Translations under genes and position numbers: made by a program | Notes under the pieces: generated by a model | Seen by the model: only the letters and a program-made list of their open reading frames with translations | Databases searched by the model: none | What the model was told of the DNA's origin: nothing | Part shown: positions 14,501 to 33,846 of the stretch, one piece after another | Layout: each line of letters begins with the position of its first letter | Position numbering within the stretch: the stretch's first letter is position 1 | Assembly: GCA_013334965.1 (NCBI GenBank) | Contig: JAAXWO010000006.1 | Span: forward strand, 62,001 to 126,000 | Source: Chlorobiaceae bacterium | GTDB taxonomy: Bacteria; Bacteroidota; Chlorobiia; Chlorobiales; Chlorobiaceae | DNA: 64,000 bases | Direction of reading: 5' to 3'

Positions 14501-14817
14501 TGTTGAAGGGTTTGATTGACGGTAAATGGTTGTGAATACAAGACAAAGAAAGCTATTTTTTCATAATGTTTCAATCCGGCGATCCCGGTCAACGATTGTC
14601 GGGCAGCGACATGTCCGGCAGATTCGCGATGTTTCCTGCGTATTTGGTTATATTCCCTGCAGTTGTCAATTTCTGCATTCATGAACGGAAGGGATATGAT
14701 CGCATACCCGGAAGTTGAATGACCTCGTGTCCTGAACCTTCAAACCTTCGAACTTGTTGAACCTTCTGGTGTCGATCATCAACAGTCGGAGTGTGGCACC
14801 AGTACGATTGTGAAACA
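14501..14817. other. divergent intergenic region between trmH and metallophosphoesterase 1
   Basis: 317 bases without a supported gene. Two copies of TGAACCTTC lie 20 bases apart at about 14733-14763, a possible operator pair; otherwise nothing distinctive was seen. Confidence 0.4.
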
Positions 14818-15891
14818 ATGAGCCTGCATCAGAAAAAACATCCGCACCTTGAACGGCTGCTGACAACTGCCAAGACGATCTCTCTCGACAGCTCGTCAAG
14901 GGTGCTGATTCTCAGCGACCTGCATATGGGAAACGGCGGGCGGCGGGACGAGTTCAGGCGAAACGCTGAGATCGTCAGGTCGATGCTGCAGGAGTACTAC
15001 CTTCCTGAAAAGTTCAGCCTGGTGCTCAATGGTGATGTTGAGGAGCTGTTCAAGTTTTCAGTCGAGAGCATTGCTGAACGCTGGGGGGCGGTCTACGACC
15101 TGTTTCTCCGGTTCGAAAAGAACGGCTTTTTCTGGAAGACCTATGGAAATCATGATGCGGACCTTTTCGAGGAGCGCAACTACAGGCTTTCAGGGCATCT
15201 TCTTGAGTCGATCAAATTCATGTACGGCGATGAGGTGATGCTGCTGTTCCATGGTCATCAGGCCTCGATCCTCCTGTGGGAGACATATCCCATCGTCAGC
15301 CGCGCTGTAGTCATGTTCCTCAGGTACATCGCCAAGCCCATGGGCATCAGGAACTTTTCATCTGCCTACAACAGCCGGAGGCGTTTCGCCATCGAGAAAT
15401 CGATCTACGATTTCTCGAACCAGGCCAAGATCGTCTCCATCATAGGACACACCCACCGGCCCCTGTTCGAATCCCTATCTAAAGTCGATCACCTTAACTA
15501 TCGCATTGAAGAGCTTTGCCGGGCTTATCCATCGGCAACTCCCGATGAACGGATTGCGATACAGGCCCGGATATCCGATCTGAAAGTCATGCTCGATGCA
15601 TGTTTCACCGAAGGCAAGAAGATCGGTCTGCGTAGCGGACGATACAACAACATCGTCATCCCGAGCGTGTTCAATTCAGGATGCGCCATAGGCAAGCGGG
15701 GAGTTACGGCGCTCGAAATTGACGGTGACAGGATACGTCTCGTCTACTGGTTCAAGGGAAAGCAGGGTCGCAAATTCGTAAGCGACCGGAACAGCGATCC
15801 GGAGCAGCTCGGCAACACCGGCAATTACCGCATCGTGCTCAACGAGGATCATCTCGATTATGTTTTTTCACGCCTTCGCCTTTTGGCCTGA
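14818..15891 (+). CDS. calcineurin-like metallophosphoesterase, paralogue 1
   Basis: 357 residues from the ATG at 14818. An in-frame GTG at 14791 is possible, but the ATG aligns with the start of the paralogue downstream. All metal-binding motifs are present: D34-x-H36, G72-D73, N111-H112-D113 (GNHD), H145-G-H147 and G-H211-T-H213. The layout resembles LpxH/UDP-diacylglucosamine hydrolase-like phosphoesterases, but the protein is longer, with a ~70-residue helical insert before the C-terminal strand. No signal peptide, so cytoplasmic. The substrate is not predictable. A second copy follows 238 bases downstream, showing a tandem duplication. Confidence 0.85.
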   Translation: MSLHQKKHPHLERLLTTAKTISLDSSSRVLILSDLHMGNGGRRDEFRRNAEIVRSMLQEYYLPEKFSLVLNGDVEELFKFSVESIAERWGAVYDLFLRFEKNGFFWKTYGNHDADLFEERNYRLSGHLLESIKFMYGDEVMLLFHGHQASILLWETYPIVSRAVVMFLRYIAKPMGIRNFSSAYNSRRRFAIEKSIYDFSNQAKIVSIIGHTHRPLFESLSKVDHLNYRIEELCRAYPSATPDERIAIQARISDLKVMLDACFTEGKKIGLRSGRYNNIVIPSVFNSGCAIGKRGVTALEIDGDRIRLVYWFKGKQGRKFVSDRNSDPEQLGNTGNYRIVLNEDHLDYVFSRLRLLA

Positions 15892-15963: not shown

Positions 15964-16129
15964 AACCTCATCATAACTTGAGATTGGGTATGTCGGAAAT
16001 CTCCTGTTCTGAACGCACTCGTCTGGAGCTCTCATCGATATAAAAGCCCCCGCCGGAGGGATGATCGCGATGTTCCCGTAAACATCGCAGTGACGGTTTT
16101 AAAGCGCCTTGGAAATCCATCAATGTCAT

Positions 16130-17266
16130 ATGAAAAAATACTTCCGTCGACGATATCCGGAACTTGAACGCCTCATGGAGTCGGCAAGGCCTGTTCCCAT
16201 AGATAATTCGTCACGGGTAGTCGTATTCAGCGACCTTCATATGGGGGACGGAAGCCGGAAAGATGAGTTTCTGCGCAATTCGGAGCTGCTTGAGACAGTA
16301 CTGGAAAATCATTATCTGACGAAGCGTTTCAGCCTTGTGCTCAATGGTGATATAGAGGAGCTGATGAAGTTCACCAGCAGAAGCATCGAACGTGGGTGGG
16401 GGCGCTTTTACGATCTGTTTCTCCGTTTCAGGGAAAATGGCTTTTTCTGGAAGATTTACGGGAACCACGACCTTGGCCTTCTTCAAGAAAAGGGGTATCG
16501 ACTTATGCCGTGGCTTGTCGAATCGATCGCATTTCGATATGGGGTTAACACAATCCTTCTTTTTCATGGACATCAGGCTTCGGAATTTCTCAAGAATCCT
16601 TGTTCCCTGATCAGTCGTTTACTTTTCTATCTGTTGCGTTACATCGCCAAACCTGCAGGCATCCGCAATTATTCCGTGTCACACAAAAGCCGTAAGCGGT
16701 ATGCCATTGAGCAGGCTGTTTATGATTTCTCTAACCGGACCGGAATTATCTCCATCATCGGTCATACTCATCGCCCGCTATTCGAATCGTTGTCTAAAGT
16801 CGATTACCTGAACTACCATATTGAGGATCTTTGCAGGGCTTACCCATCAGCCGATCCTGAACGACGGGTGCAAATCGAGACAGAGATAGGTTCCCTGAAA
16901 GACGAACTCGATGCATGTTATCGTAAAGGTTTCAGGAAAAGCCTCCGTACCGGTCGATATGCCAACCTGACCATTCCGAGCATTTTTAACTCCGGTTGCG
17001 CAATCGGTAAACGAGGGGTTACTGCCATTGAAATCGAGGATGGGATGATCAGGCTGGTATATTGGCACAAGGGGCTCATGGAGGGAGGTGTCTCCAGCGA
17101 TGCCTGCTTTTCTGAAGAACTTGGAAAAAGCGGCTTTTTCAGGGTCGTGCTCAATGAGGATAGACTTGATTACGTTTTCTCGAGAATCAGGCTGCTTTCG
17201 CGAAGTCAACATGAATCCGGGGCGTATGAAGAGGAGGCGCTGAACGTTGCCCCAACCTTTATTTAA
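16130..17266 (+). CDS. calcineurin-like metallophosphoesterase, paralogue 2
   Basis: 378 residues from ATG 16130; a TTG at 16109 in the same frame is less likely because the ATG matches the start of paralogue 1. It shares with paralogue 1 the motifs S-D-L-H-M-G, L-N-G-D-x-E-E, Y-G-N-H-D, F-H-G-H-Q-A-S and I-I-G-H-T-H-R-P-L-F-E-S-L-S-K-V-D, and is similar along almost the whole length. The C-terminus carries about 20 more residues (S-R-S-Q-H-E-S-G-A...). The two coding sequences differ at many silent sites, and this copy uses more A/T-ending codons, so the duplication is not recent or the copies came separately. Confidence 0.85.
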   Translation: MKKYFRRRYPELERLMESARPVPIDNSSRVVVFSDLHMGDGSRKDEFLRNSELLETVLENHYLTKRFSLVLNGDIEELMKFTSRSIERGWGRFYDLFLRFRENGFFWKIYGNHDLGLLQEKGYRLMPWLVESIAFRYGVNTILLFHGHQASEFLKNPCSLISRLLFYLLRYIAKPAGIRNYSVSHKSRKRYAIEQAVYDFSNRTGIISIIGHTHRPLFESLSKVDYLNYHIEDLCRAYPSADPERRVQIETEIGSLKDELDACYRKGFRKSLRTGRYANLTIPSIFNSGCAIGKRGVTAIEIEDGMIRLVYWHKGLMEGGVSSDACFSEELGKSGFFRVVLNEDRLDYVFSRIRLLSRSQHESGAYEEEALNVAPTFI

Positions 17267-18067: not shown

Positions 18068-18808
18068 TCAAATGAGATTTGCCCGAAGTTCATTCCAGAG
18101 ACCAATGTATGCCTTTGCGGCTAAACAACCCGGGCGTGCGGCATTGAGCGGCTTCCGGTAAATGCCCATTTTTTCAACTTCGGAATTGTACGGAATGCTA
18201 TGTGAAAAAACCCCGGGGGTACTGTGGTAACTATCGATGATATCCCTGTGCATGGTTTTTCTTTTTTCTTCCATTGAGAAAAATGCACGGATTTTAGACG
18301 TGTCGATTTTGTTGTCTTTAAAAAATGTTATCAACTGATTGAATGTCCTTATGGAGAGCGTCGTCGGTACCAAGGGTACCAGGATGATGTCCGAAGCTGT
18401 AAAAACGCTTTCAGAGAGAAGAGTCAGGTTTGGCGGGCAGTCAAAAAAAATGTAATCGTATTCCTCGCTGAGGTCAGCAATGTTTTTTTTTAATTTTTTC
18501 TTTGGGTTTTTTTCTTCTGCGAGATCGATATCGAGATTCCTGTACGTGATATCAGAAGGGAGCAGGTCGAGATGTTCGAAATCAGTAGCCTTGATATTCC
18601 TGTAGATCTTTTTGCTGCCTTTCAGGAATTTGTCGCTGTTATACTTTTTAGGGGCTGTGATTCTGAAGTAATATGAGCTGGCTCCCTGAGGATCGAGATC
18701 GCATATAAGTGTCGGTATCTTTTCCTGGGCGGCAAGATACGATAGGTTTACTGCAGCGGCCGTTTTCCCGACGCCGCCCTTGATGCTGTAAAGCGCTATG
18801 GTTTTCAT
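18068..18808 (-). CDS. ParA/Soj-like partition ATPase
   Basis: 246 residues. Deviant Walker A K-G-G-V-G-K-T at residues 10-16, Walker A' C-D-L-D-P-Q-G-A-S, Walker B F-F-D-C-P-P-N-L, and the D[12 protein letters not shown] block of ParA proteins. There is no ParB gene nearby and no plasmid or chromosome-origin context, so this is an orphan ParA of the kind that positions other cargoes. It starts 1 base after the CHAD-protein stop, so translation is coupled to it. A lysine-rich loop (N-P-K-K-K-L-K-K-N) near residue 110 could aid DNA or polyanion binding (inference). Convergent with mgsA. Confidence 0.9.
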
Positions 18809-18809
18809 G

Positions 18810-20378
18810 CTACTGCAGGCTGGTTACAATTTCATCGAAAAGATTACCGGTTTCTTCGTTGTCAAACCCGATGAAGGTTTCATGGAATCGCTCCCTTGCC
18901 TTTTCCTGTTCCCTGTAAAGTGAAGCGAGTAGGGCTCCTGTTGCGGCAGCTTCCATAATTTTCCCTTCACCGGCCTGAAGCGAATCCAGTCGGTTTTGCA
19001 GGAATTTCAGTTGAACCGTCATGTCAACGAATGTTCCAAGATTTTCCTGAAGTTCCTTCAACTGCCGGCCAAGTCGGATTGCACTTTTCTGGGGGAAAAG
19101 CGAGGAGAAGAATTCTAAAAGGTACCGGAGTTTCTTGCAGTCTATACGCAGTGCGTGAAGAGCCCGGTCATCGGCATCTGTTCCGATCCGACGTCCATGT
19201 GAGAGCGCTTTTTTCCATGCTTTCCTGAGAGCCGTCGCAGCCATAACTTTTGTCGAAAGGGCTGATTTCGGCGCTGACTCCTGCTCGGGCAGTTCATCCT
19301 GACCGATGAAATCGTTCAGGGAGGCCATGAACGCAACATATTCATCGCTCGAAAGGTAAAGACAGAGCCGCTTGTGAAGTATGCGCCTTGCGCTCTCTAA
19401 ATCTTCGAAAAACGGGGAGAGCGATTCCCGCAGTGTCGGAGGAAGAAGCCTGCAATATTCATTTTTCCGGAGAAGGAAGACATCACAGTCTCGCAGTTCG
19501 TTGGTGCGTTTGCCAAGGTCGCGTAATCCGGAAAGAATCAATTCCGTCTGGTCGGGGGCCAAAACACCATTCAGCAAACTGAGCATAGACCTTGTCCGAC
19601 GGATTGCGACACGGTAATCGTGCAGGAATTCCGAATCGACATTCTTGCGAATGCCGTGTTCGTTCAATTGCATAATCGATGTGGTGAACTGCAAGAGTCG
19701 TCGGACGTTTTCATGGATTGTCGCATCCGCATCAAGCTGAAGACGCATTTTTGGTGAGTAACCCCTTGTTGCAGGACCTGTTTCTTTCATGATCATGAGG
19801 AAGCGATCCCTTACGCCCATGATACGGTAGGAATCGATTTGCTCCGGCAGGGCCTTGAGTATATTGGCCAACTCCCTGTGGTAACCCTTGAGTGGCGTGA
19901 TCGTAAAAAATTTTGCGAAAGGTGCTGAATTGTTTCCGCGCGTGCCCTGCATCGATTCTGAATTCAGGATGGCGACTGTTTTCTTGTCGTCGTCGAGAAC
20001 CTTCCATGAAGATACGAACACATCGACGACGCAGGTGCGGATGAAGGCCCTTATCCTGCTGCACTGTTCAAGAACGCTCCTAAGTTTGCCGTCAGGCAGG
20101 GCAGATGGAAAGAAGGTTGTCGGAGTACCCGGAAAAACGATTTCAGCCTTGACCATGCCTGTATCCAGATCTATCAGTTGGAGGCAGCCTTTTTTCCGGG
20201 CGACGATCAAACCCCTGTTGAAAGCCTGTTCTTCAAAGGTGTCATAAAATAGATGTCGTTCCCTGTACGATGAGTTTTTCCTGATACTCCAACCGGACGG
20301 AAGGGAGTTTCCGTCTGGGAGGTCAAGCGGTGAGTTGTCGCTGACTCTCAAATAGAGTGTTTCAGAAAGCGTTTTCAT
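18810..20378 (-). CDS. CYTH-like/CHAD polyphosphate-associated protein
   Basis: 522 residues from ATG 20378, which overlaps the stop of the repeat-protein gene as TGATG. The C-terminal half (about 225-515) is a CHAD domain: [12 protein letters not shown] (253-264) and a second [16 protein letters not shown] block carry the conserved His/Arg/Lys residues that bind polyphosphate. The N-terminal ~200 residues look like a degenerate CYTH/triphosphate tunnel domain (L-F-Y-D-T-F ... [10 protein letters not shown]), but I do not see the ExE motif, so catalysis is doubtful. CHAD proteins are known to localise to polyphosphate granules. ppk1 lies just upstream. Confidence 0.88.
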
Positions 20379-21247
20379 CAGCAGGCATAGAGATGAGATA
20401 TGGGTATGGAAAGATGAGCATGTTCGTTTATCCCCTGACGGCAATAACTTCCGGCAACTTCATAAACAAGCTTTAAACAGCTTCTGTCAGGAGCTTCATG
20501 GTTTGTGTGTTTCTTCACGTTTTCGCAAGGCATGATCGGGTTATCGGCGAAGTTGACTCTGCCGGTCACTATTTTCGGCGACCTTTTTAGCGTTGTGATG
20601 CGGTTCCCGGAACAGTCGAAATCGCCATACACTTCGACAGGGCCGTGCTTGAGATTCTCAAGGCGGTTACCTGCACAGATGAAGTGGCCATGGACAAAAT
20701 CCGGACTTCCCGCAAGTGACGACAATAGGTTATGTGAACAGTCGAAATCGTGTCGCACTTCATCAGGCGCGCCGTCAAGGCTGAGCAGCAGGTTGTTCGA
20801 GCAGTTGAAAGATCCGGTTTCGAGCGGTGAGCCGTAAAGGGATACCAGTTTGTTGTTTGAACAGTTGAAAGCGCCTTTCATTTTTTTCGGTGCGCCCTTG
20901 AGGGAGATCAATCGGTTCATGGAGCAGTCAAAAGCTCCCTTTACCTTTGATGGCGCTCCTTTGAGGCAGGTAAGCAGGTTGGCTGAGCAGCTGTAATTGC
21001 CGTCGACTATTTTAGGTCCCCCGTCGAGCGATGCCAGGATGTTATTGGAACAGTCGAAGCTGCCGGTGATTTGGGGCGCACCGTCGAGCGACGTCAGTCT
21101 ATTGCCTGAACAATTGAAGTTCCCATCGACATGTTCCGGGCAGCCTTCCAGTGATGTCAATCCCATATTGGAGCAGTCAATGTCTCCGGTTCCGTCCAGC
21201 GTTCCCATTACGTCCCTGAAAGTACGTGTCATTGTTTGTCTGTGCAT
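20378..21247 (-). CDS. Cys/Asn-ladder repeat protein (LRR-like solenoid)
   Basis: 289 residues, of which about 15-235 are eleven tandem repeats of 20-21 residues with the consensus G-x-F-[DN]-C-S-x-N-x-L-x-S-L-x-G-A-P. This resembles a leucine-rich solenoid with a stacked Cys and Asn in each turn. No signal peptide or membrane segment, so cytoplasmic. The C-terminal ~50 residues are non-repetitive and rich in His and Cys. Function unknown; such solenoids usually bind proteins. First gene of a coupled operon with the CHAD protein and the ParA ATPase, which suggests an adaptor role. Start ATG 21247; the ATG at 21232 is possible. Confidence 0.82.
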   Translation of the reverse strand: MHRQTMTRTFRDVMGTLDGTGDIDCSNMGLTSLEGCPEHVDGNFNCSGNRLTSLDGAPQITGSFDCSNNILASLDGGPKIVDGNYSCSANLLTCLKGAPSKVKGAFDCSMNRLISLKGAPKKMKGAFNCSNNKLVSLYGSPLETGSFNCSNNLLLSLDGAPDEVRHDFDCSHNLLSSLAGSPDFVHGHFICAGNRLENLKHGPVEVYGDFDCSGNRITTLKRSPKIVTGRVNFADNPIMPCENVKKHTNHEAPDRSCLKLVYEVAGSYCRQGINEHAHLSIPISHLYAC

Positions 21248-21329: not shown

Positions 21330-21346
21330 TTAACACAACATTAACA
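21330..21346 (-). promoter_or_regulatory. Pho-box-like direct repeat upstream of the repeat/CHAD/ParA operon
   Basis: On the plus strand TTAACA-CAACA-TTAACA; on the coding strand TGTTAA-TGTTG-TGTTAA. Two identical hexamers with an 11-bp period, like the half-sites of PhoB/PhoP-type operators (the Bacillus PhoP site is TT[A/T/C]ACA repeated with about 5 bases between). It lies about 85 bases upstream of the first start codon. Confidence 0.5.
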
Positions 21347-21444: not shown

Positions 21445-23613
21445 TCAATGTTTTTCGGGGCCGGCCATGCGGCCTGCTTTTGAACCGTATTGCATGAATC
21501 GCTTCTGGCTGTTTATTCCAGGAACATCATTGGGAACCTTTGAGTATGAGGCATCCCGAGCCATCTGCCATGACTTTACATTGTCGCTTAGCTGAATCTC
21601 CAGGTCATCCTTGACCCGATCGACCAGTGTTCTGTCGAAGATGGGGAATAGGGTTTCAACCCGGTCATCAAGATTTCTCGGCATGAGGTCAGCACTGCCG
21701 AGATAGAGTTCAGGGACTCCTCCGTTTTCGAAATAATAGATCCTGCTGTGTTCGAGAAAACGCCCAATGATGCTGAAGACCCTGATGTTGTCGCTTATTC
21801 CAGGGATTCCTGGCTTCAGGCAGCATATCCCCCTCACGAGCAGATCAATACTGACGCCCGAACATGAGGCGGCATAGAGTGCGCTTATCGTTTTCTGGTC
21901 TACCAGAGAGTTCATCTTCATCATGATACGTGCGACATTGCCTGTTCTTTTCCATTCGGATTCGCGCTTGATCATTTCGATAATGCGTTCCCTGGTGTTG
22001 ATTGGCGAAACCAGGAGATGACGGTAATCGGTATGCCTGAAATAGCCGGTCAGCGCATTGAAAAGTTCTGAAACCTCATCTGCTATATGGTCGTCGTCGG
22101 TAAAAAAACTGTAATCGGTATAGAGTTTTCCTGTTGACGGGTTGTAGTTTCCTGTGCCGAGATGCATATAGCGTTTAATTCCTTTCCTTTCACGGCGAAC
22201 GACCATGGTAAGTTTTGCATGGGTTTTGAGGCCGGGAAGTCCATAAATCACATGAGCGCCGACATTTTCCAGTGCGCGTGCCCAGACGATGTTGTTTTCT
22301 TCGTCGAATCTCGCTTTGAGCTCGACCAGTACGGCCACCTGCTTGCCCATTTCAGCAGCCTTCATGAGGGCCTTGACGATTGGAGAGTTGCTTCCGACCC
22401 TGTAGAGGGTCTGCTTGATTGAAAGAACATCAGGATCCGAGGCCGCCTTGTTGATGAAATCGACGACAGGCTGGAACGAATCGTACGGGTGGTGGAGAAG
22501 CTGATCCTTTTTGCTTATCGCTGCGAAAATATTGAAGTCACGCTTTTCATCGAAAGCATTGAAGGGTAAGAACGGTTCATCCTTAAGGACTGGGCGGTCT
22601 ATTTTCAGAAGTTCAGTCAGGCAACTGAGGCCAAGTGTTCCTTCAATCTCATAAACGTTTCTTTCTTCAAGTTCCAGGTTTTTCATCAGCAGATGCTTGA
22701 CGAACGGTGGCATTCCGGGGTGGATGTCAAGCCTTACGACATTGCCGTAACGTCTTGACCGTACTCCTTTTTCAATTGTTTCGAGCAGGTCTCCGGCCTC
22801 ATCCTCTTCGATTTCTATATCTGCATCACGGATAATCCTGAATTGGTGGCTCTGGATTATCTTCATTTTCGGAAACAACATGCCGAGGTTGTTTTCTATC
22901 AGATCCTCGATCCACATGAACCGAGAACCGCTCGTCCCGATGTCGAATCCTTCGATGTCGTTCAGTTTCAGGAGCCTCGGAAGGATATCGGGCACTTTGA
23001 CGCGTGCAAATTTCATGCACTCTTTTTTTCTGTCCTCGAGCTCGATCGCAAGGTTAAGGGAGAGGTTGGACATGAACGGAAAAGGATGGCCGGTATCGAA
23101 AGCCAGGGGAGTGATTACCGGATAGATCTCTTTACTGAAATAGTCGTTCAGCGCAAGTTGCTGGACGACCAGAAGCTCAGAATAGCTGACAAGTGATATG
23201 CCGTCGTTGGAGAGTGCAGGAATGATGTCGTTATACAGACATTCGTGCTGTTGCTGCAGTTGCCCAAGGACAGCTTCCCTGATTATTTCAAGCTGCTCAG
23301 AAGGCGTGAAGCCGTCGACGGTTCTTTTCTGAATCCCGGCATCAACCTGGTTTTCAATACCGGCAACCCGAATCATGAAGAATTCGTCAAGGTTGGAACT
23401 GAAAATCGAGACGAATTTCGCCCGTTCAAGCAGTGGATGTAGTCCCGGTCGACTTGCTTCTTCAAGTACTCGTTGGTTGAAAAGCAGCCAACTCAGCTCC
23501 CTGTTGATGTAAAGCGAAGGATCTGAAAAATCGGGCAAAGATCCATTGCAATTCAAATCATGGGGGTTTGAAACGACTTTTGCAGGAAGGGTTTCCAGAT
23601 TTTTTTGCTCCAT
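21445..23613 (-). CDS. ppk1: polyphosphate kinase 1
   Basis: 722 residues from ATG 23613; the frame extends to a TTG at 23655, but the added part has no support. N-domain: [19 protein letters not shown]. Catalytic C1 domain: L-K-T-H465-A-K-L, the His that is phosphorylated (equivalent to E. coli His435), followed by [12 protein letters not shown]2 domain: [15 protein letters not shown]. It makes polyphosphate from ATP reversibly, at the membrane. Length is normal. It precedes, in the same direction, the repeat/CHAD/ParA operon, whose CHAD protein should bind its product. Confidence 0.96.
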
Positions 23614-23819
23614 GGTTGACACGGGATACTGAATATTGATCACTGATCTGGTCAAGACAGGCCATATCCTGGAACTCCCTGCAGATGCTTGTGTGTCGCA
23701 CGGAATCAGATATCCATTTACAGTCTCGATTGATTACAGGGAACTTAGCCAATCGAGGCTGTTTGGAACGTTAAGGGCGTGTTAAATCTGTTCGAGTTGG
23801 GTGGTATGAGGGGTTGATA

Positions 23820-25355: not shown

Positions 25356-25414
25356 TCCTGTAAATTGATCGCGTAGAAAGGAAGGCCCGTTGGTCTTCCA
25401 TGTTCATGAGGTGT

Positions 25415-25444
25415 CAACACAACACAGTACAACACAACACAATC
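25415..25444 (+). repeat. A/C-rich tandem repeat in the porin leader
   Basis: Two 15-base units starting CAACACAACACA directly before the porin start codon. No Shine-Dalgarno sequence lies between this repeat and the ATG at 25451, so the A/C-rich leader may itself be the ribosome-loading or regulatory element. Confidence 0.5.
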
Positions 25445-25450
25445 GATATT

Positions 25451-26626
25451 ATGAGAAAAGCAATGTATTTCGTGGCGCTTGCTTCAGCTTTCGGGTTCAA
25501 TGCCGCAGAGGCTGCGGATCTGAACTGGAACGGTGATGTTCGCTTCCGTTACGAATCCCAGCAGGTTAAAAAAACGAGCGACGTGAAAGATTATTCGCGT
25601 GACCGCTACCGTACGAGGGTTCGTTTCGGTGTCGACGCATGGATCAACGATGAACTTTCTGCAACGGTTAAGCTTGCAAGTGGCGACATAGGAAACGCAA
25701 TCAACGATACCGTTTCCAGAAACGAGACTTACGACGGACTGTTCAGGCCTAAATCCATTTACCTGAACGAAGCTTTTCTTGATTATCATCCGATGAGCTA
25801 TGGACTCGACGGCAAAGTGAATTTGGTATTCGGTAAACGCGATGTGGCAAAATCACTCGTTTGGGTCAACGACCTTGTGTACGACGGGGATATCTCACTT
25901 GAGGGTGTTACCGTACAGTATGGCAAGGATTCTGCTGGTAAGGAGAAGGATGGCCTGATGTTTGTCGCCGGATACTATTTCCTCGATGAGCAGTTCAACG
26001 CCACCAACGGTGCTTTTGAGAACGATCCGTTCCTGACCATCGCCCAGGCAGCTTACAGGGGCGAGATATACGATATGGGTTACACGATTGGTATCGGTGA
26101 CAATAACTTCCGGAACCTCGGCCATTTTTCCAGCTCGGTTCAGTCCCTTTCAGCTTATCCATACAGCATCAATGTGGCCGACCGCAACGTTGTTGAGCTG
26201 TTCGGCACCCTTGGTGGTCAGGTCACCGAGACCCTTCCCTGGAAGCTGTATGGTCAGTATGCCTTCAATACCAGTTCCAAAACTGATGATGCAAGGATTG
26301 ACAACAGTAAGAGAAAAGCATGGTTGGCCGGTATAAACGTAGGTGATGCGAAACAGCCGGGTCAGTGGGCACTCGATTTCAATTTCAACCACATTGAGCG
26401 TGATTCAGTCTTCCCGATCTTTACTGACTCTGACAGGAAGGTCAGTAACTGGAATACGAACACCGAAGGTTGGGAAGTCGGCGCCACATATCATCTCGTA
26501 CAGAACATGACTGTCGGAGCAAAGTATTACAACTATCGTCAGCTTGACCATAGCGGTTTCACGGGTGCGGATTCCACGAATCCGAGGCTGCATACCCTCC
26601 AGGCCGACCTGGTGGTGAAGTTCTGA
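25451..26626 (+). CDS. putative outer-membrane porin
   Basis: 391 residues from ATG 25451, chosen because a clean signal peptide follows (MRKAMYFVALASAFGFNAAEA, with cleavage after A-E-A). The frame opens earlier, at 25400, but that would bury the signal. The mature part begins D-L-N-W-N-G-D-V-R-F-R-Y-E and alternates polar and aromatic residues in many strands, ending L-Q-A-D-L-V-V-K-F with a terminal Phe, a beta-barrel signal. It resembles generic putative porins rather than a named family. Next to the pst genes and behind Pho-box-like repeats, so a phosphate-starvation porin is plausible (inference). Confidence 0.8.
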   Translation: MRKAMYFVALASAFGFNAAEAADLNWNGDVRFRYESQQVKKTSDVKDYSRDRYRTRVRFGVDAWINDELSATVKLASGDIGNAINDTVSRNETYDGLFRPKSIYLNEAFLDYHPMSYGLDGKVNLVFGKRDVAKSLVWVNDLVYDGDISLEGVTVQYGKDSAGKEKDGLMFVAGYYFLDEQFNATNGAFENDPFLTIAQAAYRGEIYDMGYTIGIGDNNFRNLGHFSSSVQSLSAYPYSINVADRNVVELFGTLGGQVTETLPWKLYGQYAFNTSSKTDDARIDNSKRKAWLAGINVGDAKQPGQWALDFNFNHIERDSVFPIFTDSDRKVSNWNTNTEGWEVGATYHLVQNMTVGAKYYNYRQLDHSGFTGADSTNPRLHTLQADLVVKF

Positions 26627-26704
26627 TTTCAGTGTGCGTGTTCTTTGAGTGTGCGTGTTCTTTCTCCGTTGGGTGAGTGTGTGGTGTGCTCATCCTGATT
26701 GTTG

Positions 26705-26744
26705 ACTGGCCGCTCAGTATGAATAGGGAGCGGCCAGTATTTTA
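26705..26744 (+). terminator. hairpin terminator or attenuator after the porin
   Basis: ACTGGCCGCTC pairs perfectly with GAGCGGCCAGT (11 bp, loop of 12), followed by ATTTTAAA. The T-tract is short, so partial read-through into pstS is possible. Two copies of AGTGTGCGTGTTCTTT lie just upstream at 26631-26664. Confidence 0.6.
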
Positions 26745-26815
26745 AACCTCTGCCTGTTTGCAGGCATTATCGACATTGTATTTACTATTGATAACTCCCA
26801 ACAAGGAATATGATT

Positions 26816-27634
26816 ATGAAACATTTCAGGAAAATTCTTTTAAGCGCTGCATTGTTCGGCTTAATGAGTTCAGGCACTGCTTCTGCAGCAGGTAAACTCG
26901 TTCTGGATGGCTCGACGACAGTTGGGCCTATCGCAAAGGCGTTTGCTTCGCATTTCTACAAAGAGACCGGCACTCAGGTTACGGTCAGTGAGTCCGGTTC
27001 GGGCAACGGCGCGAAGAGCCTGATCAACAAAACCTGCGACATCGCAGATATGTCCAGACCAATGAAGGACAATGAACTTGCCGCAGCCAGGAGCAAGGGC
27101 GTAAACCCGGTGGAGCATGTCGTTGCGCTCGACGGTCTTGCAATGGTCGTACACCCGTCAAATCGCGTCAACGCCCTTTCAAAGGCACAGGTTCGCGGCA
27201 TTTACATGGGCAAATATACCAACTGGAGCCAGATTGGCGGTCCGAATGCTCCTATCATCATGATCCAGCGTGAATCGAACAGCGGCACCCAGGACTCTTT
27301 CAAGGAGTTGGTCATGGGTAAGGATAATCCGATTTCAAAGAGGACAGAGACCCAGTCGAGCAATGGAGCCATCAAGAGCCGAGTCGCCTCCACGCCTGCG
27401 GCAATAGGTTTCATCGGCCTTGGTTTTGTGGACAATTCAGTGAAGGCGCTGCTCATCGATGGCGTCGATCCTGATGCAAAAACGGTGAAGAATGGCACAT
27501 ATCCCCTTCATCGTCCGTTGTTTATGTACACCAATGGTCAGGCGACCGGCAGTGTCAAGCAGTTTATCGATCTTCCGAAAACAGCTGAAGGCAAGAAAAT
27601 CATCAGCGAGATCGGTTTTGTGAACTATTACTGA
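26816..27634 (+). CDS. pstS: phosphate-binding protein PstS, copy 1
   Basis: 272 residues from ATG 26816. AAGGA at 26803-26807 is well placed for it and too near the ATG at 26810. Signal peptide M-K-H-F-R-K-I-L-L ending T-A-S-A-A. The mature protein starts G-K-L-V-L-D-G-S-T-T-V-G-P-I, followed by S-E-S-G-S-G-N-G-A-K-S-L and Q-R-E-S-N-S-G-T-Q-D-S-F, the anion-binding loops of PstS-family proteins. It captures phosphate in the periplasm for PstCAB. A strong terminator follows, so it can be made in excess over the permease. Confidence 0.95.
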   Translation: MKHFRKILLSAALFGLMSSGTASAAGKLVLDGSTTVGPIAKAFASHFYKETGTQVTVSESGSGNGAKSLINKTCDIADMSRPMKDNELAAARSKGVNPVEHVVALDGLAMVVHPSNRVNALSKAQVRGIYMGKYTNWSQIGGPNAPIIMIQRESNSGTQDSFKELVMGKDNPISKRTETQSSNGAIKSRVASTPAAIGFIGLGFVDNSVKALLIDGVDPDAKTVKNGTYPLHRPLFMYTNGQATGSVKQFIDLPKTAEGKKIISEIGFVNYY

Positions 27635-27655
27635 GCGTTTCCTTAAAGCGTTCCA

Positions 27656-27690
27656 AAGCCTGCAGGAGTTCGTACCTGCAGGTTTTTTTG
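27656..27690 (+). terminator. rho-independent terminator after pstS copy 1
   Basis: AAGCCTGCAGG pairs with CCTGCAGGTTT (11 bp including one G-T) around an 8-base loop, then a run of seven T and more T. It separates the two pstS genes transcriptionally. Confidence 0.9.
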
Positions 27691-27795
27691 TTTTTCCAGT
27701 AAGTAGCGTCCTGGAGTGTGACGAGCCCATGTTTTTAAAATCGGATGCCCATCGTTAACTTTCCACACGAAAACCAATCAACAAATGAGGTGATC

Positions 27796-28617
27796 ATGAT
27801 AAAACAATGGGGTAAAGCGCTTTCAGTACTCGCCATTATTTCACTTGTAACGGCAGGTCGGGCCGAGGCAAAAAGTGGTATTGTAATAGACGGTTCAACC
27901 ACCGTAGGGCCATTGGCCAAGTCCTTCGCAGCCTATTTTGACAAAAAGTACAAGGTTCCGGTGACCGTCAGCGAATCCGGCAGCGGCAATGGCGCAAAAA
28001 GCCTGATCAATAAATCATGTGACATCGCGAGCATGTCCCGTTCGATGAAGCCGCAGGAACTTACCGCGGCAAAATCGAATGGAGTCAATCCTGTTTCCAG
28101 TATCGTAGCCCTCGACGGCCTGGCAATCGTGGTGCATCCCTCGAATCCTGTTCGATCGCTCACCAAAGCACAGCTTGCCGATATCTACACCGCAAAGATT
28201 ACCAATTGGAGTAAGGTCGGAGGACCTAATGCCCAGATTGTTGTCATTCAGCGTGAATCAAACAGCGGTACTCAGGAGTCTTTCAAGGAGCTTGTCGTTG
28301 GTAAGGAAACTCCCGTTACCAGAAGCGCCGAGACCCAGGCAAGCAATGGGGCAGTTAAAAACAGGGTTTCTCTTACTCGTGGGGCGATTGGGTTCATTGG
28401 CCTTGGTTTTACCGATTCATCTGTCAAGAAGGTCGCTGTTAATAATGTCATGCCGAGTTCTGCAACCGTGAAAAACGGGAGCTATCCGCTGTCACGACCA
28501 CTCTTTTTTGTTACCAACGGTCAACCGACTGGCCTGATAAAGCAGTTTGTCGATTTCCCGAAAACTTCCGACGGGAAACTCATCATCAAGGAGCTTGGTT
28601 TTGTAGGTAAGTATTGA
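27796..28617 (+). CDS. pstS: phosphate-binding protein PstS, copy 2
   Basis: 273 residues from ATG 27796 with GAGG five bases upstream. Signal peptide M-I-K-Q-W-G-K-A-L ... G-R-A-E-A. Mature start S-G-I-V-I-D-G-S-T-T-V-G-P; the loops S-E-S-G-S-G-N-G-A-K-S-L-I-N-K and Q-R-E-S-N-S-G-T-Q are identical or nearly so to copy 1. Overall the two are clearly a tandem duplication with moderate divergence, mainly after residue 180. Which copy serves the downstream PstCAB, or whether they differ in affinity, cannot be read from the sequence. Confidence 0.95.
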   Translation: MIKQWGKALSVLAIISLVTAGRAEAKSGIVIDGSTTVGPLAKSFAAYFDKKYKVPVTVSESGSGNGAKSLINKSCDIASMSRSMKPQELTAAKSNGVNPVSSIVALDGLAIVVHPSNPVRSLTKAQLADIYTAKITNWSKVGGPNAQIVVIQRESNSGTQESFKELVVGKETPVTRSAETQASNGAVKNRVSLTRGAIGFIGLGFTDSSVKKVAVNNVMPSSATVKNGSYPLSRPLFFVTNGQPTGLIKQFVDFPKTSDGKLIIKELGFVGKY

Positions 28618-28825
28618 CTTGAATATATCCGGGATGCGTTGTTCTTGCGGCCCGATGGTTTGAGTCCGGCCTCGCCAAGTCCTGGCATTCTCTCTGTTCT
28701 GGTGTAATGTTCCAAAATCGTAACAATGGTGTCATTGTTTTCCTGCAATAAAGCACATACATTTCTCGCGTCCTGAAAAAAGGAGCAACGGTCAGCCGGG
28801 GCCTTAACCTGAAAACAGCAACGAT

Positions 28826-29989
28826 ATGAGTAGTGAAGATACGGCCAGGCAAGTCAGGTCATCGGCTTTTGTCGTGAGTGCCCGAAAGCGCAAGCTGCAG
28901 AAGATCAGCAAAATGGCAGGCGAATCTACCCTGCTGCTTATTGCGTCGTTCGTAGCTGTAGTTGTGCTCTTCATATTCTTCTTCGTGGCTCGTGATGCCG
29001 TTCCGTTTTTTCAAATCCGAGGCTTCAGTGAGTTCTTTACAAGCACCAACTGGTATCCGGCCGACGATCCTCCAGGATTTGGTTCCCTGGCGATTATTTA
29101 TGGTAGCTTGATGGTGACCGTTGGTTCTGCACTTATTGCCATTCCGATGGGCATTACCGCCGCAATTTGTCTTTCCGACGTTCTTCCGTTTTCCGTTCGT
29201 CAGTATGTCAAGCCGATCATCGAGATGCTTGCCGCGATACCATCGGTAGCATTCGGCTTTTTTGCTCTCGTGATTCTCGCTCCGCTTCTCCAGAACTTCG
29301 GAGGCCCTATCCTTATGTGGACATGGTGGTTGATTGTTTCGCCATTTCTGCTTCTTGCGATTATCGTCGTCTCAGAGTTGCTGACTGCGAATATTGCCAG
29401 TGAAAAAAAACGGAAAATTCTCCATGCCACTTCGCTTGGCGTGTTTGGGCTTATCGCTTTGGCTCTCCTTTTTTTTGTCGGACGTAAACTCCAGGGCATA
29501 GAGATTCTGACCGGCACCAATGCCCTGAACGTATCGATCATCCTGAGCTTCATGGCCCTGCCCACGATTGTCAGCGTGTCCGAAGACGCCCTTCAGGCGG
29601 TCGGGCGTGAACTTCGTGAAGGCAGTTACGCACTTGGAGCCACAAGGGCTGAAACCATCGTCAAGACAATTCTTCCTGCCGCGAGCAGCGGCATTCTTGC
29701 TGCGGTGATTCTCGGTATCATGAGGTCTCTCGGTGAAACCATGGTCGTCTGGATGGCGTCAGGAAACTCGTCGCACATTCCGGATCCATGGTTCAATTAT
29801 CTCGAATCAGTTCGCACCTTGACGGCGACCATTGCCGGTGATATGGGGGAGGCCGATCAGGTTACCGGTTCGGCCCGTTTCCATGTGCTGTTCGCCATGG
29901 GCCTTTTGCTTCTCGTTATCAGTTTTGTCAGCAATTTTATCAGCGAACGGATCATCGTTCGTCAGCGAAAGGTTCTTTCCGGTCAATGA
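28826..29989 (+). CDS. pstC: phosphate ABC transporter permease PstC
   Basis: 387 residues. An N-terminal cytoplasmic stretch of ~30 basic residues precedes the first membrane helix (L-L-I-A-S-F-V-A-V-V-V-L). The ABC permease loop is E-G-S-Y-A-L-G-A-T-R-A-E-T-I (EAA-type motif), followed by S-L-G-E-T-M-V-V-W-M-A-S-G-N. About 60 residues are inserted between the permease helices (E-K-K-R-K-I-L-H-A-T ... G-I-E-I-L-T-G-T-N), with one additional hydrophobic segment, making it longer than E. coli PstC (~319). First permease gene of the operon pstC-pstA-pstB-phoU. Confidence 0.94.
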   Translation: MSSEDTARQVRSSAFVVSARKRKLQKISKMAGESTLLLIASFVAVVVLFIFFFVARDAVPFFQIRGFSEFFTSTNWYPADDPPGFGSLAIIYGSLMVTVGSALIAIPMGITAAICLSDVLPFSVRQYVKPIIEMLAAIPSVAFGFFALVILAPLLQNFGGPILMWTWWLIVSPFLLLAIIVVSELLTANIASEKKRKILHATSLGVFGLIALALLFFVGRKLQGIEILTGTNALNVSIILSFMALPTIVSVSEDALQAVGRELREGSYALGATRAETIVKTILPAASSGILAAVILGIMRSLGETMVVWMASGNSSHIPDPWFNYLESVRTLTATIAGDMGEADQVTGSARFHVLFAMGLLLLVISFVSNFISERIIVRQRKVLSGQ

Positions 29990-30043
29990 TATGAGTTCCA
30001 TTTAGGCTGCCTGCTGACAAAATCAACTTAATTTATTGGTGTT

Positions 30044-31390
30044 ATGAATCTTGGAACCAGAAAATTACTTGACCGTGCGTTTACCGCCCTGGGATTAGGT
30101 TCCATTGCCGTCATGGCCATGATGCTTCTTGTCGTTCTTGTGCCTATCGTAAGCAAAGGTTTCAGCGCAATTGTTTTCAAGTCTACGGTAGAACACCGAA
30201 AAATGGTTTTTAACGAGTTTCACCGAGGCAATCGTAGTGCGCTTGAGAAGGAAATCGCCGCGTCGGATGCCGCTCGCAGGAACGTGTATGATATGCTTTC
30301 CCGCTTCGAGTCTGAGCTCATGCTGATGAATGAGGATAAACAGCAGGAGTACACAGAAAAATACGATCAGGTTAAATCGGCTCTCAGGGGATTGCTCGGA
30401 CCTCTTCCCGGTGATTCTGAACCGGCTTTGACAAGGTTGACGTATGGGCAGAACCGATGGGAAAAAGCCGAAGAAAAACTGCAGGAACTGCTCTATGAGA
30501 AAAAGTGGGACTATTCCAATCCTGATGTCGTTGCCAAGGAGTATTTTGTCAGTCGTTCCGCTGGTTTCGAAGGAACTTCCCTCGCAAGGCTTTTTCCTTA
30601 CGTAGAAAAAAACATAGACAGGATGCTGTTGCCTGAATGGACATTCTACTGGGGCTTCATTACTGATAGTTCTGTCGATTCACACATTTTCGGAGGTATA
30701 TGGCCGGAAATCCAGGGCACCCTTTTTCTTGCAATCGGAGCTATGCTGTTTGCATTTCCGCTTGGTGTGATTGCTGCGATATATTTCACGGAATATGCCC
30801 GTGAGGGATTTTTCAACAGTCTCCTGCGCAGTGCCAACAGTACGCTCGCCGGTGTGCCGAGCATCGTGTTCGGTCTTTTCGGCCTTGCCTTTTTCATCAA
30901 TACCCTCAAGGTTTCTGAATCGAAGAGTGTGCTGGCTGGTTCACTTACCCTGGCAATAATGATCTTGCCAACGATCATTCGGGCAGCAGAAGAGGCGATT
31001 CTCGCAGTCCCGAAAACCTACCGGGAAGCATCACTTGGATTGGGATCGACGAAATGGAACACCATTGTCACCGTTATTCTTCCTGCCGCACTACCAGGTA
31101 TCCTGACAGGAGGGGTTATCAGCCTTGGCAGGGCAGCAGGGGAGACTGCGCCGATCATCTTTACGGCTGCCGTCAGCGTCGGTTCTGCCATTGGCCTTGC
31201 CGATGTCTTCACATCGCCGACGCCAGCGCTATCCTGGAACATATACAACCTTGCCAGCGAGCATGAAGCAGCTGCCGAGATCCGCCATGTCCAGTACGGG
31301 ATGGTTCTATCCCTGATCTCCATTGTGCTGCTGCTCAATTTGTCTGCAGTTATCCTGAGAGCAAGAATTTCCAAAAAATTAAAAGGGTGA
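30044..31390 (+). CDS. pstA: phosphate ABC transporter permease PstA with large periplasmic insert
   Basis: 448 residues against about 300 for typical PstA. After the first membrane helix (about 17-40) there is a hydrophilic insert of roughly 150 residues (45-205), rich in charged helices with coiled-coil character (A-L-E-K-E-I-A-A-S-D-A-A-R-R ... E-K-A-E-E-K-L-Q-E-L-L-Y-E-K-K). The permease core follows: E-A-S-L-G-L-G-S-T-K-W-N-T-I, the ABC-contacting loop, and S-L-G-R-A-A-G-E-T-A-P-I. The insert should lie in the periplasm, where it could touch PstS; that placement is inference. Stop is 6 bases from the pstB start. Confidence 0.94.
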   Translation: MNLGTRKLLDRAFTALGLGSIAVMAMMLLVVLVPIVSKGFSAIVFKSTVEHRKMVFNEFHRGNRSALEKEIAASDAARRNVYDMLSRFESELMLMNEDKQQEYTEKYDQVKSALRGLLGPLPGDSEPALTRLTYGQNRWEKAEEKLQELLYEKKWDYSNPDVVAKEYFVSRSAGFEGTSLARLFPYVEKNIDRMLLPEWTFYWGFITDSSVDSHIFGGIWPEIQGTLFLAIGAMLFAFPLGVIAAIYFTEYAREGFFNSLLRSANSTLAGVPSIVFGLFGLAFFINTLKVSESKSVLAGSLTLAIMILPTIIRAAEEAILAVPKTYREASLGLGSTKWNTIVTVILPAALPGILTGGVISLGRAAGETAPIIFTAAVSVGSAIGLADVFTSPTPALSWNIYNLASEHEAAAEIRHVQYGMVLSLISIVLLLNLSAVILRARISKKLKG

Positions 31391-31396
31391 GACAAT

Positions 31397-32251
31397 ATGC
31401 AATCGTCTCCTGAAGTCGTCGAGACATCGCAGAACGCATCAAAATCCGTCAGGGAAATCTATCTGCCCCCGGAACGGAAAAAGGTCTCCGGTGGTGGGGT
31501 TCCGCACGTTTCGGCGAAGAATTTTTCAGTTTACTATGGCGAATTTGAGGCCGTCAAGAAGGTCAATGCCGATATTCTGTCAAAATATGTCACGGCGATC
31601 ATCGGCCCGAGTGGTTGCGGAAAGAGTACCTTTCTTCGTGCAATCAACCGTATGAATGACCTTATTCCTAACAGTCATACGACCGGGTCGCTCATGTTCG
31701 ACGGCGAGGATGTTCATGGTAAATTCACTGACGAGGTGCTTCTTCGCAAAAAAATCGGCATGGTGTTCCAGAAACCCAATCCATTTCCGAAATCGATTTT
31801 TGACAACATCGCCTATGGGCCCCGTTTGCATGGCATAAAGGATAAAAAGACTCTCGAAGGTATCGTTGAAAAGAGTCTTCGCAAGGCAGCGCTCTGGGAC
31901 GAAGTGTGTGATCGTCTCGACAAAAACGCGCTGGGCATGTCGGGCGGTCAGCAGCAGCGTCTCTGCTTCGCCAGGACTCTTGCCGTCGAACCGGAGATAC
32001 TTCTTCTTGACGAGCCGACATCTGCGCTCGATCCGAAAGCTACTGCGAAGATCGAGGACCTCATCCAGGAATTGCGCGGAAGCTATACCATCATGATCGT
32101 TACGCACAACATGCAGCAGGCTTCGAGGGTGTCGGATTTCACGATGTTTTTTTATGAAGGGGTTCTTGTCGAACATGCTCCGACGGCTCAATTGTTTACC
32201 AAGCCAAAAGACAGCATGACTGAAGATTATATAACCGGAAGATTCAGCTAA
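31397..32251 (+). CDS. pstB: phosphate ABC transporter ATPase PstB
   Basis: 284 residues. Walker [10 protein letters not shown] at 70-78, Q-loop in [11 protein letters not shown], signature [11 protein letters not shown], Walker [13 protein letters not shown] and the H-loop [15 protein letters not shown] is characteristic of PstB. An N-terminal extension of ~30 residues precedes the usual start of PstB. Couples ATP hydrolysis to phosphate import through PstC/PstA. Confidence 0.97.
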
Positions 32252-32262
32252 CGAAAACATAT

Positions 32263-32955
32263 ATGTCCATGTCGGAAAGACCGGTACACGAACAGATCAG
32301 GGAATTGTCCGGAGAACTCGTTCAACTTTCGGACAAAGTGCTGAATAATTTCAACGATGCACTTGTGGCCGTGAGGGTTCAGGACGCGCAGGCAGCCAGA
32401 AAGATCAGGACGATTGATGATGAGATCAATCTGGCCGAAGTCAGGCTTGAGGAGCAGTGTCTGTCATTTCTTGCCCTGCAGCAACCAGTAGCAAGAGATC
32501 TCAGGACCATCGTTACGATATTGAAAATCAACGACGACCTGGAGCGCATCGGAGATCTGGCGGTTCACATCATCGAGCGCATGCCTGAACTCGGCGCCGA
32601 GGTCATGGACCGATATGAGTTCGACAACATGGGGCAGGTCGCAGGAGAGATGGTCAGGAAGTCCCTCGAAGCGTTCGTCAATCGAGACCAGCATCTCGCA
32701 GACAACGTCTGTAAATCGGACGAACAGGTCGATACCATGCACCGTCTTGTGTTCAGGAAGGTTGCAGACGCGATGAAAAAGGACGGATCGAGTACGGAAC
32801 AGCTCCTCGCCGTACTGAGCGTTTCCCGCTACATCGAGCGCATGGCCGATCACGCCACCAGGATCGCCCTCGAGGTGATTTACCTTGTCACCGGCGAGAT
32901 CGTTCGCCACTCGGAGGACTCATTCGAGAAACTGATCCAATCGCTGAAGGATTGA
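32263..32955 (+). CDS. phoU: phosphate signalling protein PhoU
   Basis: 230 residues, all-helical, with two PhoU domains, each with an E/D-rich metal-binding motif (E-R-I-G-D-L-A-V-H and E-R-M-A-D-H-A-T-R). PhoU links the Pst transporter to the PhoR-PhoB two-component system and represses uptake when phosphate is ample. Begins 11 bases after pstB; no phoR/phoB is seen in the window. Confidence 0.95.
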   Translation: MSMSERPVHEQIRELSGELVQLSDKVLNNFNDALVAVRVQDAQAARKIRTIDDEINLAEVRLEEQCLSFLALQQPVARDLRTIVTILKINDDLERIGDLAVHIIERMPELGAEVMDRYEFDNMGQVAGEMVRKSLEAFVNRDQHLADNVCKSDEQVDTMHRLVFRKVADAMKKDGSSTEQLLAVLSVSRYIERMADHATRIALEVIYLVTGEIVRHSEDSFEKLIQSLKD

Positions 32956-32964
32956 TTCGACAAT

Positions 32965-32995
32965 GCCCTGGTGTGTCATCCGGGCCGTTTTTTTT
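32965..32995 (+). terminator. terminator after phoU
   Basis: GCCC-T-GG pairs with CC-GGGC with one bulged T and a loop of about 8 bases, followed by CG and eight T residues. Probably ends the pst operon transcript. Confidence 0.6.
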
Positions 32996-33114
32996 AGCTT
33001 CTTATGCTTGATATAACCCCTTCGGAGGCTTAAATTAAGTTCGCTTCCCCGAAAGAGCGTGCCAGGGGCAAAGAATCATGTAATCAATCAACCAAAGCAA
33101 CGAGCTTCATCACT

Positions 33115-33846
33115 ATGGCTAAACTTTTTGGCAAGATGTTCGGCGATGCCCCGAAATCCGGCGATATTCCAAAGGCCTTCAGCATTCAGATCGATCCGTC
33201 AAAATTCAATCTCGCCACCAAGCCGTCCGGCCCTGTGCATGAGCAGCTCGAAACACTGAAACAGAAGCTCACCAAGCTCTCTTCGAACGTCGAGAACAAC
33301 GTCATGCTCGCCGTCAGGGCCTCGACCAAGAAGAACCGCGAACTGGCCGCCTCTGCATTTACCTTTGACGAACAGTATATCCAGAAAGGCAAGTTCGAGG
33401 TCGAGTACCTTACTCTTGCCTATTCGAATTTCCAGCAGCTCAGCGAAGCCGACCACAAGACGGTAGTCGATGCCCGCATGATTCTGAAAGAGCTCGAAAA
33501 ACTTGCCCAGTTTGCCCTCAACATCGCAGACAAGACCGAGTTCATACAGCTTGCAAACGTACAGGAGCTGCACAAGGATGAATATGGCCTTAAACCGATG
33601 GGCGATATCACTGCCGAAATGATCAAGAAAGCAGTTGAGGCTTTTGTGAGCGGCAACTCGAAGCACGCAAGCGAAACGCTCGACATGATGAAGGAGATCG
33701 ACGGACTTTACGAGGCGGCCGTTAAAAAGCTGAAGAGTGACGTGAATGACCAGAACATCACCAACCTCACCGGAATACTTTCCGTGGTTGAGCATGTCAG
33801 GGCATCGGCTCAGATCTCCTGTACGATTGCCAGTCACTTCTGCTGA
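33115..33846 (+). CDS. second PhoU-like protein
   Basis: 243 residues. The segment S-G-P-V-H-E-Q-L-E-T-L-K-Q-K-L-T-K-L-S (40-58) matches the PhoU start P-V-H-E-Q-I-R-E-L of the neighbour, and the alternating helices continue (E-L-E-K-L-A-Q-F-A-L-N-I-A-D). The first ~35 residues (M-F-G-D-A-P-K-S-G-D-I-P-K-A-F-S-I-Q-I) are an added tail. The metal-binding E-R-x-x-D pattern of the second repeat is replaced by V-V-E-H-V-R-A-S-A-Q, so metal binding may be reduced or lost there. It has its own leader and terminator and may be a divergent regulator. Confidence 0.85.
   Translation: MAKLFGKMFGDAPKSGDIPKAFSIQIDPSKFNLATKPSGPVHEQLETLKQKLTKLSSNVENNVMLAVRASTKKNRELAASAFTFDEQYIQKGKFEVEYLTLAYSNFQQLSEADHKTVVDARMILKELEKLAQFALNIADKTEFIQLANVQELHKDEYGLKPMGDITAEMIKKAVEAFVSGNSKHASETLDMMKEIDGLYEAAVKKLKSDVNDQNITNLTGILSVVEHVRASAQISCTIASHFC

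Follow-up and report, generated by a model that had tools for sequence, protein, structure and literature searches.

A conserved CHAD-ParA gene pair in green sulfur bacteria as a candidate system for positioning polyphosphate granules

The window analyzed here is a 64-kb stretch of a 2.48-Mb Chlorobiaceae genome. Three open reading frames on its minus strand lie 3′ of ppk1 in the order repeat gene, CHAD gene, and ParA gene. They encode an LRR-like protein with 21-residue repeats (positions 20378 to 21247; NCBIfam LRR-type matches and alignment), a CYTH(TTM)-CHAD protein of 522 amino acids (18810 to 20378; Pfam CHAD, 7e-54), and a ParA-type ATPase of 246 amino acids that has no cognate ParB (18068 to 18808; Pfam AAA_31/ParA, 4e-36). 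The tight packing described in the first-pass annotation was confirmed: the stop codon of the repeat gene and the start codon of the CHAD gene share 1 base (TGATG), and the spacing between the CHAD and ParA genes is 1 base. The CHAD start was placed at the ATG at position 20378; a longer open reading frame from a TTG at 20444 was rejected because the extension has no counterpart in most relatives. The trio does follow ppk1, and this polyphosphate kinase 1 gene is complete (21445 to 23655, minus strand; TIGR03705, 1.9e-259; four Pfam PPK domains).

Pho-box-like sites were found 5′ of both the repeat gene and ppk1. The one before the repeat gene, a direct repeat with an 11-bp period (TTAACACAACATTAAC, 21330 to 21345), bears out the earlier claim of such a site, and a second one precedes ppk1 (TTAACACGCCCTTAAC, 23770 to 23785, minus strand). 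These are the only two exact TTAAC-n6-TTAAC sites in the 64 kb. The element upstream of the repeat gene has a recognizable form in many of 17 relatives, with GTYAA-n6-GTTAAC-like elements at this place in many of them, and elements with an 11-bp period likewise occur 5′ of ppk1 in many relatives. They may be PhoB sites. Beside the locus, a phosphate cluster with the gene order porin-pstS-pstS-pstC-pstA-pstB-phoU-phoU (Pfam matches) occupies positions 25400 to 33846 on the plus strand; its pstS duplicates are in tandem (26810 to 28617), and its two phoU-type genes lie at 32263 to 32955 and 33115 to 33846. Two metallophosphoesterase paralogs, also in tandem (14791 to 15891 and 16109 to 17266), are convergent with the ParA operon, and this pair is kept beside the operon in many Chlorobiaceae.

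The CHAD protein is an ortholog of Chlorobium tepidum CtCHAD, whose structure is known with bound polyphosphate. Both its profile and its predicted structure (pLDDT 87.7) match CtCHAD (PDB 6qv7, 6qva, and 3e0s), and one of the loci examined (L032) encodes the exact CtCHAD sequence. CtCHAD binds polyphosphate in vitro and forms higher oligomers on it, and mutations at H253, R256, R260, R296, R418/Y419, and R438/K441 weaken this binding (PMC6537752). Among 23 aligned relatives from several phyla, H253, R256, R260, R296, R418, Y419, and K441 are invariant (23/23), and only R or K occurs at position 438. These conserved central-pore residues fit the basic pore of polyphosphate-binding CHAD proteins, and the initial assignment of the protein to that group is well founded. 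In Ralstonia, CHAD proteins are located on the granules of living cells (cited in PMC9239181 and PMC6537752). The N-terminal half of the window protein has a CYTH/TTM fold, which in Foldseek matches E. coli YgiF (5A60, 3e-8) as well as thiamine triphosphatases (probability 1.00), with THTPA and AtTTM3 among the matches; Pfam CYTH was not detected in the window protein by sequence. It is reasonable to regard this CYTH-like domain as catalytically dead, as had been suggested, since the ExExK motif is absent from the N terminus of the window CHAD and from all but possibly one of the 23 aligned proteins.

The window ParA gene encodes a complete ATPase of the deviant-Walker type, which is not the chromosomal Soj. 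In all 24 aligned sequences, K10, K15, and T16 of the deviant Walker A motif KGGVGKT are invariant, as are the acidic residues D37, D39, and D123, and the mean column identity in the alignment of relatives is 80%. The predicted structure (pLDDT 90.7) folds like Soj, ParA, and McdA, with Foldseek matches to Soj/ParA at 4e-20 and TM scores of 0.85 to 0.88 and with the McdA structures 6non and 6nop among the nearest matches. It thus shares the fold and motifs of the ATPase of ParABS (Soj-ParB) systems, but it is only 30 to 33% identical to the genome's own Soj, and no linked ParB of the kind found in ParABS lies near it. The sole ParB of the genome (C12:149396) adjoins the Soj-like ParA, so the description of the window ParA as an orphan holds. 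In a tree, the CHAD-linked ParAs inside and outside the Chlorobiaceae (see below) belong to one clan, and the branch that divides this clan from Soj has full support.

Structures of BcsQ and FleN were also among the Foldseek matches of ParA. BcsQ acts for cellulose synthase and FleN for FleQ. The main rival to a role in positioning is a function of this type, in which ParA would use ATP to assemble or regulate polyphosphate metabolism, controlling the recruitment or activity of CHAD, PPK, or PPX while the granules stay unmoved. The neighbors of the pair, which are genes for polyphosphate enzymes and phosphatases and not for segregation, would suit such a factor. However, Soj, ParA, and McdA match more closely than BcsQ or FleN, and the distribution of the pair (see below) also argues against this explanation, which we consider unlikely.

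A survey of 86 Chlorobiaceae genomes showed that CHAD and the dedicated ParA are present and absent together. Both were found in 79 genomes and neither in 6; the remaining genome (G009) carries part of a ParA gene at the edge of a contig. The two genes are adjacent in 72 pairs (71 measured pairs and the window). Spacing in the 71 measured pairs ranges from −23 to +15 bases, and the genes of 39 of these pairs overlap by 4 bases. In seven genomes, ParA (73 to 76% identical) has moved to another site, yet it persists along with a CHAD gene; an additional unlinked case (G077) is a contig break. Across the family, CHAD identity falls to 37 to 69% while ParA holds 63 to 81%. The joint absences in metagenome-assembled genomes (MAGs) are weak evidence alone because one assembly gap can remove neighbors together. 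In the nearest relatives outside the family (G086 and G087), CHAD is short and a dedicated ParA is missing. Given this conservation, the three-gene arrangement in the window is not a chance observation.

The pair is not strictly bound to ppk1. Many CHAD-ParA loci have no ppk1, and ppk1 outlasts the missing pair, being present in 6 of the 7 genomes without CHAD and retained in 5 of the 6 that have neither CHAD nor ParA. Such independent keeping and loss argues against ParA as a regulator of the polyphosphate enzymes. The expectation that the trio would be conserved beside ppk1 was therefore met in part: the CHAD-ParA pair is conserved, the repeat protein is not, and adjacency to ppk1 is frequent only. 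In some Chlorobium lineages, ppk1 occupies the place of ParA 3′ of CHAD, and in a few genomes a second CHAD paralog adjoins ParA (L075, L081, L085, L088 to L090, L095, L097, and L106). A comparison of ParA-linked with ppk1-linked CHAD paralogs, made to look for a segment that could dock ParA, showed no clear difference. In one MAG (G082), a frame change or stop interrupts the ParA gene (L132:2769-3534), which may be an assembly error.

Conservation thus applies to the CHAD-ParA pair rather than to the trio. Many Chlorobiaceae have the repeat protein, some with two copies beside ppk1. Its N terminus is short and basic, but the protein is not universal. It is missing genome-wide in G026, G029, G046, and G049, all of which keep CHAD-ParA, and several of the genomes without it are near-complete. 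Nor was it found in any of 16 CHAD-ParA loci outside the family; it was seen only in Chlorobiaceae. Because it is absent from near-complete genomes and from all 16 outside loci, the repeat protein is not an essential adaptor, and the first-pass view of a solenoid adaptor linking the other two proteins is unsupported, the protein being absent from several CHAD-ParA species. It is a lineage accessory of the Chlorobiaceae.

These 16 outside loci were among the best 80 matches when GTDB contigs were scanned with the ParA profile. In every one of them (16/16; ParA identity, 51 to 59%), CHAD lies 5′ of ParA on the same strand, usually at a distance of 25 bases or less (55 in L206 and 503 in L197). 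The taxa include Desulfobacterota, Dadabacteria, KSB1, Gemmatimonadota, “Deferribacteres,” Bacteroidota, and a Methanophagales archaeon; many of these records are MAGs, and the archaeal case is one MAG contig. Most of the 16 loci have ppk1, ppx, CYTH, NUDIX, or SixA genes as neighbors. Several outside loci have, just 3′ of ParA, a gene for a small stand-alone CYTH protein. A gene for a SixA-type histidine phosphatase recurs beside CHAD-ParA or ParA (L207, L210, L212, L249, and L267), and the gene order in the Bacteroidota genome G121 is SixA-CHAD-ParA. The recurrence of SixA, CYTH, and NUDIX genes suggests that CHAD-ParA belongs to a larger phosphate-signaling neighborhood.

The CHAD partnership is tight in the core of the clan and not universal, since more distant members have no adjacent CHAD. 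Clan ParAs at 38 to 45% identity in Chitinophagaceae-type Bacteroidota (L244, L246 to L248, L250, and L251) and Marinobacter are not beside CHAD, and neither are those of Sphingomonas and Novosphingobium. The clan ParA on Marinobacter pMAQU02 is beside phbB, acetyl-CoA hydrolase/transferase, and pyruvate kinase genes, and a Halomonas copy is also near a pyruvate kinase gene (L256:4980-5747 and L257:101-835); these ParAs possibly serve other storage-related cargo.

A search of plasmids returned distant ParA copies only, at 48% identity or less. Among them are plasmid-borne copies in Paracoccus, as might be expected if ParA were a relict partition gene of a plasmid or mobile element that had entered the polyphosphate operon by accident. 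However, the two Paracoccus plasmids inspected retain CHAD, CYTH, and NUDIX neighbors in the order CHAD-ParA-CYTH-NUDIX (ParA identity, about 41 to 42%). No ParB is nearby, ParA is very strongly conserved, and CHAD adjoins it across phyla and in an archaeon. This cross-phylum conservation with CHAD largely refutes a plasmid-partition origin, which we regard as highly improbable.

CHAD and ParA probably form a dedicated two-protein system that has polyphosphate as its cargo and positions the granules. Several lines of evidence were counted in favor of this. First, neighboring genes gave the clue to what ParA/MinD ATPases carry in H. neapolitanus (PMC10241942), and ParA here has a conserved adjacent partner gene, CHAD, as do cargo-positioning ATPases. 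Second, the two genes are present and absent jointly in Chlorobiaceae and adjoin each other across phyla, mostly in a polyphosphate gene context, and their ATPase and polyphosphate-contact residues are invariant. Third, seven genomes keep both ParA and CHAD despite their separation. Finally, a cell of Chlorobium thiosulfatophilum can contain as many as three polyphosphate granules (PMC11269200), which provides a physical target for spacing or sharing. Three observations were counted against it. Distant clan ParAs have no adjacent CHAD, and ParA is unlinked from CHAD in seven genomes. The third is the N terminus of CHAD. A basic N-terminal ParA-activating peptide was looked for in CHAD and not found; the first 30 residues are mostly neutral or acidic, with a net charge mostly of 0 to −5, and partly strand, unlike the basic disordered N terminus typical of ParA partners. 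The lack of this signature also speaks for ParA as a regulatory factor. A basic C terminus in some non-Chlorobiaceae CHADs is no more than suggestive.

In the positioning system that we favor, contact between ParA and CHAD, nucleoid binding, and granule movement would work together as follows. CHAD would coat polyphosphate granules via its basic central pore, and this coat would mark the granules as ParA cargo. ATP-bound ParA dimers would bind the nucleoid, and CHAD clustered on a granule would release or activate them. The resulting ParA gradient could then move and space the granules and share them out, in the manner of McdA with carboxysomes, with the repeat protein acting as a lineage-specific helper where present. 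A more specific version, offered tentatively and at somewhat less than an even chance, is an ATP-driven ParA ratchet in which polyphosphate itself is the “partition site”: CHAD oligomers on long chains would replace the ParB-centromere complex and activate ParA only on the granule, and the mechanism would be common to several bacterial phyla and an archaeon.

Comparison with known systems shows both likenesses and differences. McdAB likewise combines an orphan ParA-type ATPase with a cargo-bound partner. However, the McdA-type Walker A motif is SGGQGKT (PMC9178275) compared to the invariant KGGVGKT here, and McdB and a protein-shell cargo contrast with a CYTH-CHAD partner and a proposed polyphosphate cargo. 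CtCHAD and the CHAD phosins (Lorenzo-Orts 2019; Tumlirsch and Jendrossek 2017) compare closely, the window CHAD being the ortholog of CtCHAD with the pore residues kept, but here CHAD is half of a conserved pair with ParA; a check of the text of the CtCHAD paper turned up neither ParA nor an ATPase. YgiF of E. coli has the same CYTH-CHAD (TTM-CHAD) architecture but is an active short-chain polyphosphatase, whereas the window protein lacks ExExK and is followed by a ParA gene. AlgP of Pseudomonas aeruginosa affects the number and spacing of polyphosphate granules, the function proposed here, but it is a histone-H1-like nucleoid tether that has no ATPase and is unrelated to CHAD or ParA.

Known positioning of polyphosphate and PHB uses nucleoid tethers such as AlgP and PhaM (PMC9239181, PMC13052382). 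By analogy, ParA-CHAD could be a passive link between nucleoid and polyphosphate or could condense DNA, with ParA acting as a tether that can be switched and with the chromosome, not the spacing of granules, as its physiological target. The invariant Walker residues argue against a tether, which would have no need for a conserved ATPase cycle, and the chromosome is already served by a separate Soj-ParB. This explanation therefore appears quite improbable, more so than a regulatory role.

The claim that no system of such composition had been described was upheld for the CHAD-ParA pair: in full-text searches, mostly of open-access papers, no CHAD-ParA or polyphosphate granule-ParA system was found. 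In a 2025 review, the positioning of polyphosphate is presented as tethering to the nucleoid, with AlgP as the known example, and it is stated that the granule-positioning proteins of Caulobacter are unidentified and that the use of energy in placing polyphosphate granules remains to be seen (PMC13052382). The CHAD-ParA unit is present in green sulfur bacteria and several unrelated microbes, and it is most likely a previously undescribed machine that places or shares out polyphosphate granules. This means that a widespread gene pair is now a concrete candidate for energy-driven granule positioning. The structurally best-known CHAD protein would thereby gain a partner, and the ParA family would gain a new class of cargo.
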